Part shown: piece after piece, positions 42,233 to 63,341 of the stretch
How positions within the stretch are numbered: position 1 is the first letter of the stretch
Layout of the letters: every line of letters begins with the position of its first letter
Assembly: GCA_021730945.1 (NCBI GenBank)
Contig: JAKFYH010000006.1
Coordinates: forward strand, 62,001 to 126,000
Direction: 5' to 3'
Source of the DNA: Acidobacteriota bacterium
GTDB taxonomy: Bacteria; Acidobacteriota; Vicinamibacteria; Vicinamibacterales; UBA2999
DNA: 64,000 nucleotides
Program-made: the position numbers and the translations under genes
Notes under the pieces: generated by a model
What the model was told of the DNA's origin: nothing
Database searches by the model: none
The model's input: only the letters and a program-made list of their open reading frames with translations

Positions 42233-43399
42233 ATGCAGGATGCCGTTATCGTTTCCGCCATTCGCACCGCCGTCGGCAAGGCGCCGAAAGGCACCCTCAG
42301 CGTCATGCGCCCAGACGAGCTGGCCGCCGCGGCCATCTCCGGCGCGCTCGCCCGTGTCCCCGGTCTTGATCCCGCATCGATCGACGATGTGATCCTCGGC
42401 TGCGCGATGCCGGAGGGCGAACAGGGGTTGAACGTGGCGCGCATCGCGAGCCTGCGCGCGGGCATACCGGTCGAGGCCTCGGCGGTGACCGTGAACCGGT
42501 TCTGTTCGTCCGGGCTGCAAGCCATCGCCTATGGCGCCGAGCGCATCATGCTCGGCCACGGCCAGGCGGCGATGACCGGCGGCACCGAGTCGATGAGCAT
42601 GGTGCCGATGGGCGGCAACAAGGTCTCGCCCAACCCGGCGCTGGTGGCCTCCTACCCCGACGTCTATCTCAGCACCGGGCTGGTGGCCGAAAACCACGCG
42701 CGCGAGTCGTCTGTCTCGCGGGAGGCCCAGGACCAGTTCGCGCTACGCAGCCACCAGCGCGCGATTGCCGCCATCGATGCCGGCCGGTTCAAGGACGAGA
42801 TCGTGCCGTTGACGGTTCGCGTGGTTGACGCGGCACGCAAGGTCAGCGAGATTCGCTTTGACACAGACGAGGGTCCCAGGCGCGATACCTCGATTGAGGC
42901 GCTGGCCAAGCTGCGGCCGGCCTTCCATGTGAGCGGCACCGTCACGGCCGGCAATTCGTCGCAGATGAGCGACGGCGCCTCCGCGGTGATCGTCACCTCC
43001 GCGGCCCTGGCCAAGCAGCGCGGCCTGACGCCGCTCGCCCGGTTCGTCGGCTATGCCACCGCCGGAGTAAAGCCCGAACTGTTTGGCATTGGCCCGGTGC
43101 CGGCGGTCCGCAAGGTGCTGAAGTTGACCGGGCTGACCCTCGATCAGATCGACGTGATCGAACTGAACGAAGCGTTCGCGTCCCAGGCGCTGGCCTGTAT
43201 TCACGAACTCGGTCTCGACCCCGACAAGGTCAACGTCAACGGCGGCGCGATTGCGCTCGGCCACCCCCTCGGGTGTACCGGCGGCAAGCTGACCGCCACC
43301 CTGATTCACGAGCTGCACCGCCGCAAGGCCCGCTACGGCCTGGTCACCATGTGCGTAGGCGGCGGCATGGGAGCGGCGGGGGTGTTTGAACGAATGTAG
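42233..43399 (+). CDS. fadA: Acetyl-CoA C-acyltransferase (3-ketoacyl-CoA thiolase)
   Basis: The 388-aa thiolase performs the last step of beta-oxidation, splitting 3-ketoacyl-CoA. The nucleophilic cysteine is in [11 protein letters not shown], the histidine in [11 protein letters not shown] and the second cysteine in [11 protein letters not shown]. Length and motifs are normal. It follows the second hydrolase by nine bases and precedes the fadE-like gene, matching the Bacillus fadN-fadA-fadE order with two hydrolases inserted. Confidence 0.95.
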
Positions 43400-43491
43400 T
43401 TGAAAGTTGAAAGTTGAAAGTTGGCAGTTTCAGTTTCAGTTGGAAGTTTCAGTTTCAGTTTCAGTTTCAGTTGGAAGTTCAGTTTCCCATT
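43400..43491. repeat. TTGAAAG / TTTCAG microsatellite between fadA and fadE
   Basis: Three tandem TTGAAAG heptamers start at the thiolase stop. TTTCAG hexamers follow in runs of two and four, separated by TTGGAAG. The tract fills the entire 105-base joint except for the last 13 bases, where GAGGAA serves as ribosome site for fadE. Confidence 0.85.
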
Positions 43492-43504
43492 GAGGAACGC
43501 ACCT

Positions 43505-60493: not shown

Positions 60494-61780
60494 TCACGCC
60501 GCCGGCACGCCGTTCTTCAACAGGTCTTCCATCGCCGCGGTGAAGGTATCGATCTCCTCGAGCGGCGTGTAGATGTTGGGCGTCACCCGGATGCCGTTGT
60601 ATTCCGGCCTCGTGATCGGCGTCGTGATGATCCGGTAGCGGTCCCACATGAACGCGTTGATGCGCGCCGCCGGGATGTCCTTGATGCCGACGCAAGCCAC
60701 GCCGTAGACCTGGTCGAGGCCGGTGTGGATGACGATGCGCGGATTGGCCTTGAGCTTGTTGGCCCAGCGCAGGGTCAGGTAGCGCAGGCGCGCCGCCACC
60801 CGTTCGGTGCCAATCGCCTGGTGGAACGCCAGCGCCTCGTTGATCGCCGCCTTGGTGGCCGCCGGCGAGGTGCCGATCTCCTCGAACTTGCGGATGTCGT
60901 TCTCGTTGCGCTCCGGCGCCGCCTGCATGGGCCAGGTCTTGGCAATGCGGTCGCGACGGACGTAGAGGAAGCCGGTCCCGGTTGGCGCCAGCAGCCACTT
61001 GTGCAGGCTGGTGCCGTAGTAATCCATCTCCAGGTCGCGCAGCTTGAACGGGAAGTGCGCCACGGCATGGGCACCGTCGACGATGGTGATGATGCCGCGG
61101 GCGCGGGCCATGCGTGCGATGTTCTGGACCGGGAAAATCTGGCCGGTCAGGTTGGTGATGTGACAGAAGTGCAGCACCTTGGTGCGCGGCGTGATGGCGC
61201 CCTCGAGCAGGCCGAACAGCGTCTCGCCGGTGGTCGGCACCGGAAAGTTGATCTTGGTGATCTTGATCTTGTCGCGGCGCGCGCGCTGGTCCCAGGTGGT
61301 GAGCATGCGGCCGTAGTCCTGCTCGGTGGTCAGCACTTCGTCGCCCGGCTCGAGGTCGAGGCCGTTCTGGGCAATCTGCAGCGACTCGCTGGAGTTGCGG
61401 GTGATGGCCATCTCCTCGGCATCGCAACCAAACTCGGCGGCCAGCCGGCGGCGGACTACCTCGATGTTCCGCTCGATCAGGCCGCGATGATAGACCGGCG
61501 CCTGGTTCGAGTAGTCGAGGTAGCGCTTGTAGGCCTCGTGCACCACGGTCGGGCTGGGGCAGCTGTTGCCGTTGTTGAGGTTGATCAGCGACCGGTCGAG
61601 CGTGAACGCGTTCTGGATGTCGCGCCAATACCCCTCATCAGCCGCCACGTCGTCAGCGGTCCGACTCCCCAGGGCGCGCGAGGCCTGGGCCACAAGGTCG
61701 ATGCTGTTGCTGCCAAGAGCAACGGCGCTGGCGCCGGCGGCGCCGGAAATTCGCAGGAACGAGCGGCGGTCGGTTCTCAT
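60494..61780 (-). CDS. Tat-exported class V aminotransferase-like PLP enzyme
   Basis: This 428-aa protein starts with a twin-arginine signal (DRRSFLRISGAAGA). The class V aminotransferase fold follows, with TRNSSESLQIA, VDGAHAVAHFPF (Asp and His at the PLP ring) and the Schiff-base lysine in TSLHKWLLAPTGTG. It resembles isopenicillin N epimerase-like and cysteine desulfurase-like enzymes. Exported, folded PLP enzymes of this type occur in several soil phyla, but their substrate is unknown. Divergent from the M28 peptidase, sharing a palindromic promoter region. Confidence 0.88.
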   Translation of the reverse strand: MRTDRRSFLRISGAAGASAVALGSNSIDLVAQASRALGSRTADDVAADEGYWRDIQNAFTLDRSLINLNNGNSCPSPTVVHEAYKRYLDYSNQAPVYHRGLIERNIEVVRRRLAAEFGCDAEEMAITRNSSESLQIAQNGLDLEPGDEVLTTEQDYGRMLTTWDQRARRDKIKITKINFPVPTTGETLFGLLEGAITPRTKVLHFCHITNLTGQIFPVQNIARMARARGIITIVDGAHAVAHFPFKLRDLEMDYYGTSLHKWLLAPTGTGFLYVRRDRIAKTWPMQAAPERNENDIRKFEEIGTSPAATKAAINEALAFHQAIGTERVAARLRYLTLRWANKLKANPRIVIHTGLDQVYGVACVGIKDIPAARINAFMWDRYRIITTPITRPEYNGIRVTPNIYTPLEEIDTFTAAMEDLLKNGVPAA

Positions 61781-61786
61781 GGGCGG

Positions 61787-61792
61787 ATTCTA
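61787..61792 (-). promoter_or_regulatory. -10 (TAGAAT) of the class V aminotransferase gene
   Basis: Read on the minus strand, TAGAAT ends six bases before the ATG at 61780. The predicted mRNA is leaderless. Confidence 0.5.
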
Positions 61793-61862
61793 GCAGGTGC
61801 TCGGGTGCTACGGTGCTCAAGTGCTCAGGTGCCAACCAGCACCTCAGCACCCCAGCACCTGC

Positions 61863-61868
61863 TAGAAT
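61863..61868 (+). promoter_or_regulatory. -10 (TAGAAT) of the M28 peptidase gene
   Basis: It is the mirror image of the element at 61787 and ends six bases before the ATG at 61875. The predicted mRNA is leaderless. No -35 is evident on either side. Confidence 0.5.
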
Positions 61869-61874
61869 CCGCCC

Positions 61875-63341
61875 ATGCGAACCACATCGTTAGGCGTCCT
61901 CGCCACTGTCCTCCTCCTGACGATCACCAGCGCTGCACAGGATCGTGCCGACATGGCCGTGGTCGAGAAGATCAAGGCCGAAGGCATGGATCGCTCGAAG
62001 GTGCTGGAGACGTTCGACTACCTCACCACCGTCATCGGCCCACGACTGACCAACTCCCCCGCCCACCGGCGGGCGGTGACCTGGAGCCAGGACACCGCCA
62101 AGACCTGGGGCATGAGCAACGTGCACGCCGAGGCGTTCCAGTTCGGCCGCGGCTGGACGCTCGACAAGGTCACCGTGGAAATGATCGAGCCGCGCTACAT
62201 GCCGCTCGTGGGTTACCCGAAGGGGTGGTCGCCGGCGACCGCCGGCCGCCTGGTCGCCGCGCCGGTCTGGTTGCCGGGCCTCGATGCCGCCGCGTTGGCG
62301 GCCCAGGCCGGAAAGCTACACGGCGCGATCCTGATGACCAGCCCCATCCAGTCGTATGCCATTCGCGCGGATCGGCCGGCCGCCAGCGGCGACCTCAAGC
62401 CGCCACAGCCGGCACCGGCGCGGCCGGTGCAATTGAACGCCGAGCGGCTGGCGCAGCTCAAAGCCGAAGGGGTGGGCGTGACGATCGAGCCCAACATCGG
62501 CGAGCACGGCACCGTGTTTGTCACCGGCCGCGACATGGGCGCCAACTCGGTGCCGTCGATCGTGCTCGCCTCCGAGCACTACAACCTGGTGGCGCGTTTG
62601 CTGGAGCAGAAGGTGCCGGTGAAGCTGGCGGTGGAGATCCAGTCGCGCTTCCACGAAGACGACGCCCGCACGCACAACGTGATCTTCGAAATTCCCGGCA
62701 CCGACAACGCGGTCAAGGATGAGATCGTCATGGTCGGCGCCCATCTCGACTCGTGGCACACCGGCACCGGCGCGACCGACAACGCCGACGGCGTGGCCAC
62801 GACCATGGAGGCCATGCGCATCCTGAAGGCGCTGGGCGTGCGGCCGCGGCGGACCATTCGCGCGGCACTGTGGGCGGGCGAAGAGCAGGGCCTGCTGGGC
62901 TCGAAGGCGTATGTCGCCGAACACCTGGCCGGCACCAAGAACACCGCCGCGCGCGACAAGTTCTCGGTCTACTTCAACCTCGATAACGGCTTCCCGCCGA
63001 TCAGCGGCTTCTATATGGAAGGCAACGAGCCGGCGCGAGTCATCATGACCGAGTGGCTGAGACCGGTGGCGGCGCTTGGCGCCATCATGCCGTCACCGGG
63101 CCACATCGGGGCCACCGATCACCTGTCGTTCATCGAGGTGGGGATCCCGGGCTTCCAGGCGGTGCAGGAGTACATCGGCTACGACGTCAGGACGCACCAC
63201 ACCAACATGGACTTCTCCGAGCGGATTGCACCCGACGCCCTCAAGCAGGCATCGGTCGTGATGGCGACGGTGCTGTACCAGGCGGCGATGCGCGAGGGCA
63301 CGTTTCCGAGGCCGGCGCCGCCCAGTCCGGCCGCGAAATAG
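61875..63341 (+). CDS. Secreted M28-family zinc metallopeptidase
   Basis: This 488-aa protein has a signal peptide (to about residue 21) and a PA-like insert (about 115-220). The M28 domain has the two-zinc ligands: H and D in GAHLDSWHTGTGATDNADG, EE in AGEEQGLLG, D in GATDHLSF and H in THHTNMDF. Family members are aminopeptidases or carboxypeptidases of periplasmic peptides. The PA-like region often modulates substrate access. Divergent from the Tat-exported PLP enzyme. Confidence 0.93.
   Translation: MRTTSLGVLATVLLLTITSAAQDRADMAVVEKIKAEGMDRSKVLETFDYLTTVIGPRLTNSPAHRRAVTWSQDTAKTWGMSNVHAEAFQFGRGWTLDKVTVEMIEPRYMPLVGYPKGWSPATAGRLVAAPVWLPGLDAAALAAQAGKLHGAILMTSPIQSYAIRADRPAASGDLKPPQPAPARPVQLNAERLAQLKAEGVGVTIEPNIGEHGTVFVTGRDMGANSVPSIVLASEHYNLVARLLEQKVPVKLAVEIQSRFHEDDARTHNVIFEIPGTDNAVKDEIVMVGAHLDSWHTGTGATDNADGVATTMEAMRILKALGVRPRRTIRAALWAGEEQGLLGSKAYVAEHLAGTKNTAARDKFSVYFNLDNGFPPISGFYMEGNEPARVIMTEWLRPVAALGAIMPSPGHIGATDHLSFIEVGIPGFQAVQEYIGYDVRTHHTNMDFSERIAPDALKQASVVMATVLYQAAMREGTFPRPAPPSPAAK

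Follow-up and report, generated by a model that had tools for sequence, protein, structure and literature searches.

The gap studied here separates two divergently oriented genes in a 64-kb window (the whole stretch of DNA that was analysed, 64,000 nucleotides) of an acidobacterial genome designated G000, and its features are collected in Table 1. The flanking products, a PLP enzyme and an M28 peptidase, belong to the Pfam families Aminotran_5 and Peptidase_M28; the N-terminus of the former (MRTDRRSFLR) contains what we take to be a twin-arginine signal, and the latter presumably begins with a signal-like segment. The first-pass annotation of this DNA was exact in the length and coordinates of the gap, in its 29-base arms with one mismatch and in the mirrored TAGAAT six bases from each ATG. 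Its count of five direct and three inverted octamers was right for the inverted array, but the direct one consists of three exact GGTGCTNN units, one AGTGCTCA and GGTGCC.

Table 1. Genes and sequence features of the divergent gap, in positions of the window
Feature	Position	Strand	Description
Intergenic gap	61781-61874		94 bp, between divergent PLP and M28 genes
Class-V aminotransferase-like PLP enzyme gene	60494..61780	minus	Pfam Aminotran_5, PF00266
M28-family metallopeptidase gene	61875..63341	plus	Pfam Peptidase_M28, PF04389
Inverted repeat, left arm	61772..61817	no strand	46 nt, 91% complementary to right arm
Inverted repeat, right arm	61838..61883	no strand	46 nt, 91% complementary to left arm
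Direct octamer array	61796..61833	plus	GGTGCTCG GGTGCTAC GGTGCTCA AGTGCTCA GGTGCC
Inverted octamer array	61838..61859	minus	AGCACC x3, 8-bp spacing
M28 gene -10 box TAGAAT	61863..61868	plus	Ends six bases before ATG
PLP gene -10 box TAGAAT	61787..61792	minus	Ends six bases before ATG

The full inverted repeat extends beyond the gap, past both ATGs, as far as codons 2-3. Folding of the gap DNA gives -50.3 kcal/mol versus -17.1 (sd 2.7) in dinucleotide shuffles (z = -12.35), none of 200 shuffles being as good; the palindrome is beyond chance, and the DNA could possibly form a cruciform. Transcription from the two -10 boxes should begin at the ATGs and so leave the palindrome outside both mRNAs. 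A reading of the gap as an RNA hairpin was rejected, Rfam having returned six matches to microRNA models and one unrelated match, all of them below threshold.

The gene pair in related genomes

The divergent PLP/M28 pair is kept in seven of eight relatives of the same genus, the exception (G005) having only a 41% M28 match, and it is divergent in all eight genomes that have it, with gaps of 53-123 bp. Three of these orthologous gaps contain octamers, namely those of G000 (five, plus three inverted), G006 (two, plus three inverted) and G007 (direct only), and the gap of G008 contains GCACCCGAT 9-mers. Both -10 boxes, by contrast, were found in all eight, including the five without octamers. The M28 box lies 6-7 nt before the ATG throughout and reads TAGAAT in seven genomes and TATAAT in one (G003). 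The PLP box reads TATAAT in six of the seven relatives, TAGTAT in G008 and TAGAAT in G000; it lies 6-7 nt before the ATG in five of the eight genomes and 21-25 nt before it in the others (G001, G002 and G004), with a Shine-Dalgarno-like stretch in between. With octamers in 3/8 gaps and -10 boxes in 8/8, the promoters did not come from the repeat, and the pair manages without octamers. The earlier proposal of a mobile repeat that provided both genes with promoters thus stands as regards a dispersed repeat and falls as regards the supply.

Upstream of 320 candidate ATGs in the DNA fetched for G000, TANNNT occurs 26 times at a distance of 6-7 nt, every other distance up to 29 nt having 0-7 occurrences, a peak that makes leaderless starts likely. 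Both sides of the gap read TAGAAT-N6-ATG, the arrangement of TA-led (leaderless) genes, in which, according to PMC3160421, TANNNT precedes the start by about 12 bp and a Shine-Dalgarno sequence is missing. The leaderless starts proposed at first pass are therefore backed, at the level of sequence, by the boxes in every orthologous gap and by the TANNNT peak; the boxes are likely to be real, the genes are most likely leaderless in G000, and the boxes appear independent of the octamers. Absence of the octamers from the same junction in close relatives, with no change of gene starts, had been named beforehand as telling against a role for the repeat, and this is strictly what G003 and G008 present; in G001, G002 and G004 it holds for the M28 spacing, which is unchanged, but not for the PLP gene, which has a 21-25-nt leader. 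In a FastTree phylogeny built from the two adjacent proteins, and hence from one locus, G000 is the first branch of a clade with G003, G006 and G007 (support 0.99), in which G003, a genome without the octamer triple described below, groups with G006 and G007 (0.92; 0.57 for G003 with G007). On this one locus, the simplest reading would place octamers in the ancestor of the clade and their loss in G003.

The two ends of the gap resemble each other in ways that differ between species. In the PLP arm of G000 the TAGAAT box, the spacer and the preceding bases are those of the M28 arm, and codon 2 of the PLP gene is AGA, as opposed to AAG in G003, G006, G007, G001 and G002 and CGA on the M28 side. 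The M28 arm of G003 has the box TATAAT in a context like that of its own PLP arm, and AGGAGTAGTAT in the PLP arm of G008 resembles the AGGAGTAGAAT found in M28 arms. Copying of the M28 arm onto the PLP arm thus seems clear in G000; copying in the opposite direction, from PLP onto M28, is fairly well indicated in G003, and the indication in G008 is weak. Had a single tract been copied, codon 2 would be expected to be identical, yet AGA versus CGA persists. When arms are paired by species over the 24 nt before the ATG, 25 of 40,320 pairings match as well as the true one, rising to 752 of 40,320 at 15 nt and 3,730 of 40,320 at 12 nt; a good part of the signal lies upstream of the -10 boxes, where G000 and G006 have octamers. 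The PLP arm of G007 scores higher with the M28 arm of G000 (16) than with the M28 arm of G007 itself (11), and that of G008 scores marginally higher with the M28 arm of G002 (17) than with the one from its own genome (16). Fold z-scores are about -12.4 for G000, -6.0 for G003, -5.3 for G006 -2.5 for G001 (with unpaired ends), -2.1 for G008, -1.5 for G004, -1.1 for G007 and +0.6 for G002. Mirror symmetry without octamers recurs at this gene pair in G003 and, weakly, in G008.

A stem search independent of gene starts covered 196 divergent gaps, taken from DNA sampled in five genomes. Inverted repeats scoring at least 19 were found in 14 of them, three being the PLP/M28 pair and 11 other gaps. 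The PLP/M28 stem ranks first of 79 in G000 (score 42), first of 43 in G003 (23) and second of 25 in G008 (19), and the G004 copy lies outside the top five stems of that genome's divergent gaps; of the four sampled genomes that have the pair, three show it as unusual, but it is not alone. High scores elsewhere were seen at L363:2391-2658 (52), L325:9664-10007 (45), L308:2639-3000 (37) and L021:4450-4810 (37).

These ranks, the persistent divergence of the pair and the likeness of a genome's own PLP and M28 arms in four species (scores of 29 in G000, 19 in G003, 16 in G008 and 14 in G006) would suit a symmetric bidirectional promoter or operator that co-regulates both genes, its arms being kept alike by selection whatever lies in the middle. 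Beyond the -10 box, however, the mirrored sequence varies by lineage; G007, G001, G002 and G004 have no arm likeness, in the last three of these the PLP coding sequence is preceded by a leader that includes a Shine-Dalgarno-like stretch, and stems are equally strong at the 11 other divergent gaps, which make a general process plausible. We consider selected symmetry improbable on this evidence, the choice being between it and a quasipalindrome that sustains itself.

A dispersed family of intergenic octamers

Three GGTGCT cores at 8-bp spacing, hereafter the octamer triple, match 65 times in the 4.73-Mb assembly of G000, and two such cores 126 times, versus 0 for the reversed control pattern in either case. 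We examined 48 array clusters from among the matches listed, the studied gap included. Outside called genes lie 45 of them, the other three overlapping a gene by more than 20 bp, and the surrounding DNA is about 91-95% coding. The clusters occupy 33 co-directional, 11 divergent and 4 convergent junctions, as compared with 45, 7 and 7 among all junctions of the window. At the co-directional clusters the sense strand reads GGTGCT in 17, AGCACC in 15 and a mixture in one, and a function as ribosome-binding or promoter element was discarded on account of this random orientation with respect to genes. Neighbouring arrays on a contig show no concordance of orientation (10/21 alike, p = 0.64), and orientation shows no link with corrected GC skew; these two tests gave a replichore-oriented motif no support. 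Most G000 arrays are of single orientation, unpaired and variable in unit number.

The 8-nt unit approximates RGTGCTBR, a consensus biased by the acceptance of units with up to two core mismatches, in which GTGC is near-invariant and R prevails at position 1 and T at position 6; the two closing bases (the free pair) are mostly G, C or T followed by A or G, and so only partly G. Adjacent units share their free pair in 66 of 186 cases (0.35, with 0.17 expected); observed and expected sharing are 0.57 and 0.20 in G001, 0.26 and 0.15 in G007, 0.21 and 0.18 in G005, and 0.17 and 0.20 in G006. The octamers form a genome-wide family, mostly intergenic and indifferent to gene orientation, whose copy number and free bases vary.

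Across 60 genomes the triple is present in ten, G000 included, and absent from 50; one of the ten, G052, has a single match but six control matches. Within the genus it occurs in five of nine genomes (65, 57, 6, 13 and 18 matches), with none in four. A scan of named genomes showed GGTGCTNN runs in many bacteria, in at least 116 stretches, of which 109 of the 116 listed have one or two kinds of free dinucleotide. A plain microsatellite was rejected by comparing the share with at least three kinds, 7 of the 116 listed stretches versus 19 of 41 loci of this genus (those with four exact units in four of its genomes), a measure that is rough because at least five of the other 109 listed stretches come from G001 and G030. 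Two of the seven are from G006 and G022 themselves, and the others from an Acidobacteria bacterium, Candidatus Sulfopaludibacter (which we take to be acidobacterial), Verrucomicrobiia, Microbacterium and Herminiimonas.

Arrays at shared junctions number five for G000 and G007 and two for G000 and G006 (the studied gap being in both counts), two for G000 and G001 (L043/L196 by one flanking gene only) and one for G000 and G005. Where aligned, they keep their orientation and differ in copy number and free bases, with the studied gap as an exception in that the inverted array is missing in G007. By eye, orthologous arrays also seem to lie within conserved coding sequence at L207 (G001)/L214 (G006), where their length is equal, and at L213 (G006)/L259 (G007), where it differs.

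The repeat family occupying a gap changes between species. At junction L018:2526, followed in 5/5 relatives, G007 has octamers, G006 CCCCAAG heptamers and G002 AACTTTC heptamers, G001 has nearly no gap and G003 no evident repeat. At L018:4645, followed in 4/5 relatives, G006 has octamers, G003 AAGCCCCC, G002 GTGAGGAAC 13-mers and G001 no evident repeat; G007 at this junction and two L010 junctions were left out as not anchored. A census of tandem arrays with 7-14-nt units, made on hand-picked stretches with a gene caller trained on G000 and giving counts that are too low because its detector overlooks the studied gap itself, placed 21 of 28 arrays between genes in G000, 57/71 in G002, 28/40 in G008, 9/13 in G004 and 7/17 in G003; a mononucleotide shuffle of the G000 stretches yielded no such array. 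Intergenic arrays amount to 7 in 393 kb of G003, 57 in 394 kb of G002 and 21 in 400 kb of G000, and the sampled G003 stretches (L328-L347) are poor in intergenic short tandem arrays of all families, octamers included. The window itself has a second family at 43395-43494, mostly intergenic, with GTTGAAA heptamers followed by AGTTTC-type repeats; GTTGAAA is also present in further stretches of G000 and in G002. Several families in these genomes, with units of 8, 9, 10, 13 and 14 nt, have a common GGTGC or GGTTC core.

Of 186 array edges from five genomes, an uncontrolled count puts TANNNT and an open frame next to 26; for 15 of the 26 the distance is -1 to 4 nt, and six of those 15 edges belong to the PLP/M28 gap in three species. 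Inverted octamer pairs are ordered plus then minus in 19/19 cases, and with a census-type detector the G-richer array comes first in 20 of 21 inverted pairs (13 of 14 excluding octamers), counts that include L237 twice and the second element of L246 twice.

A near-invariant GTGC core with free flanking bases could be what a global regulator, or else a nucleoid protein, recognises, and this gap would be one of its targets. Geobacter metallireducens has class 1 and class 2 'predicted global regulator binding sites', for which binding by IHF/HU was proposed without test (PMC2700814, as far as its accessible text goes); like the octamers these are tandem units of about 8 nt in tens of copies, and the class 1 consensus GTTGCTYN, found in paired sites, is close to GGTGCTBR. 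The Geobacter sites form opposite-strand pairs at variable distance, whereas the octamers are paired at the studied gap and in sister genera and mostly unpaired in G000; the Geobacter sites also have three or four units each and are said in the same source to be unique to that genome. The octamers follow no rule of orientation toward genes, along contigs or with skew, the triple is missing from most genomes surveyed, four of the same genus among them, and two followed gaps carry other repeat families in other species. Regulator sites are on balance quite improbable, and the co-regulation by a repeat-recognising protein suggested at first pass is not borne out, arrays lying at all junction types in either orientation.

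In sister genera (G030, G022, G023 and G033) the octamers are mixed with GGTTCTNN in palindromic elements of about 60-260 bp, some of which, at several loci, have GGTTCCGGT(T/G)C as their core (loci L232-L256). Several G030 contigs stop at or near GGTGCTNN/GGTTCTNN arrays, probably at assembly breaks. Dispersed copies, many of them palindromic in this way, are the case for a REP/REPIN-like or MITE-like mobile element that depends on a transposase gene at another site, which we regard as highly improbable: counts of PF01797 (Y1/RAYT) do not track octamer counts over 60 genomes (PF01797 versus triples, 0 versus 9 in G023, 12 versus 0 in G008 and 1 versus 79 in G030), which speaks against a RAYT/Y1 transposase as the mover, and the G000 arrays are mostly of one orientation with variable unit number. 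REP/REPIN sequences are palindromes of 20-40 bp, one end of which is tagged with GTAG or CGTC (compare PMC3733652); by eye, neither outer end of the gap's arms has such a tag.

Origin of the palindrome and its relation to known repeats

The reading we prefer, with a probability of roughly 0.65, is that a dispersed octamer filler sits in this gap as a passenger bounded by protected -10 boxes, and that its symmetry stems from template switching. We infer that arrays grow by slippage or unequal exchange, and that growth halts at elements protected by selection, here the two -10 boxes that adjoin the start codons of a leaderless gene pair; within gaps the filler would turn over in place. A G-rich array may fold back during replication, and the ensuing template switching (quasipalindrome correction), a process reportedly seen in bacterial experiments, would give mirror symmetry. 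The two promoter ends are alike because each consists of a -10 box, a short spacer and an ATG, and ends so alike could copy one another; in G000 the M28 arm would have overwritten the PLP arm, changing its box from TATAAT to TAGAAT and codon 2 from AAG to AGA. The palindrome would then be a convergent array pair plus two look-alike leaderless promoter ends, and the octamer repeat is unlikely to serve any dedicated function at these two genes. Of the explanations for the arm copying, template switching fits best. The near-invariant GTGC core counts against this account, being more constraint than plain slippage would predict.

Dispersed intergenic short tandem repeats, often as convergent inverted pairs, are of a kind already known from Xanthomonas and Geobacter metallireducens. 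As described in the accessible part of PMC4692102, Xanthomonas campestris and X. axonopodis have GGGAATC/GGGANTN heptamers and Nostoc has GGGGA(T/C)T; the two Xanthomonas genomes contain 186 and 183 dispersed patterns, 89 and 93% of them intergenic, without strand or replichore preference and with 70 and 75 convergent inverted pairs. The octamers resemble these heptamers in being short tandem units with a conserved core, free positions and many copies, mostly intergenic (45/48) and strand-indifferent (17/15/1 of 33), and in forming convergent inverted pairs (19/19, and the studied gap), though most G000 arrays are unpaired. Both share junctions between related species with varying length, and at three followed gaps some of our species lack the arrays or have them replaced. 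The Xanthomonas unit differs in having 7 nt, not 8, a different core and a possible G-quadruplex, only 7-8% of those repeats lie between divergent genes, and promoter arms copying each other are not among the features set out in that part of the source. The TAACTGA direct repeats of marine Beggiatoaceae, for which a post-transcriptional role was proposed, are likewise dispersed, mostly intergenic and patchy among relatives; unlike the randomly oriented octamers, they lie upstream of start codons and mostly point the same way, with one inverted case (PMC4679880, accessible part). The likeness to quasipalindrome template-switch mutation is that arms of an imperfect inverted repeat grow alike by copying (PMC8794818, in the portion available); unlike the experimental cases, copying is here suggested by differences between species at a promoter pair. 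A search of the open-licence literature, judged chiefly by titles and the starts of abstracts, and a text search for repeat strings yielded no published description of this octamer family.

What is new is the octamer family, the occurrence of differing repeat families in one gap by species, the G-rich-first polarity of inverted pairs and an apparent copying of promoter arms, clear in two lineages in opposite directions and weak in a third. A tentative and unlikely extension would be that in many bacteria paired inverted arrays arise by fold-back of a G-rich nascent strand, which would account for the G-rich array coming first, and that the same process repeatedly mirrors one divergent leaderless promoter onto the other, a concerted evolution by replication error and not by selection.

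The octamer repeat at the PLP/M28 gap looks like a passenger, though mirror-image ends arose there more than once. An eye-catching palindromic 'operator' can thus be a passenger, the conserved part being two -10 boxes next to the ATGs. The locus adds an acidobacterial example to the intergenic tandem repeats, a poorly understood class, and brings two regularities that can be tested, namely that a gap's repeat family can change with the species and that inverted pairs are of a single polarity; and the apparent copying of arms in opposite directions in two species offers a natural test bed for template switching on bidirectional promoters.
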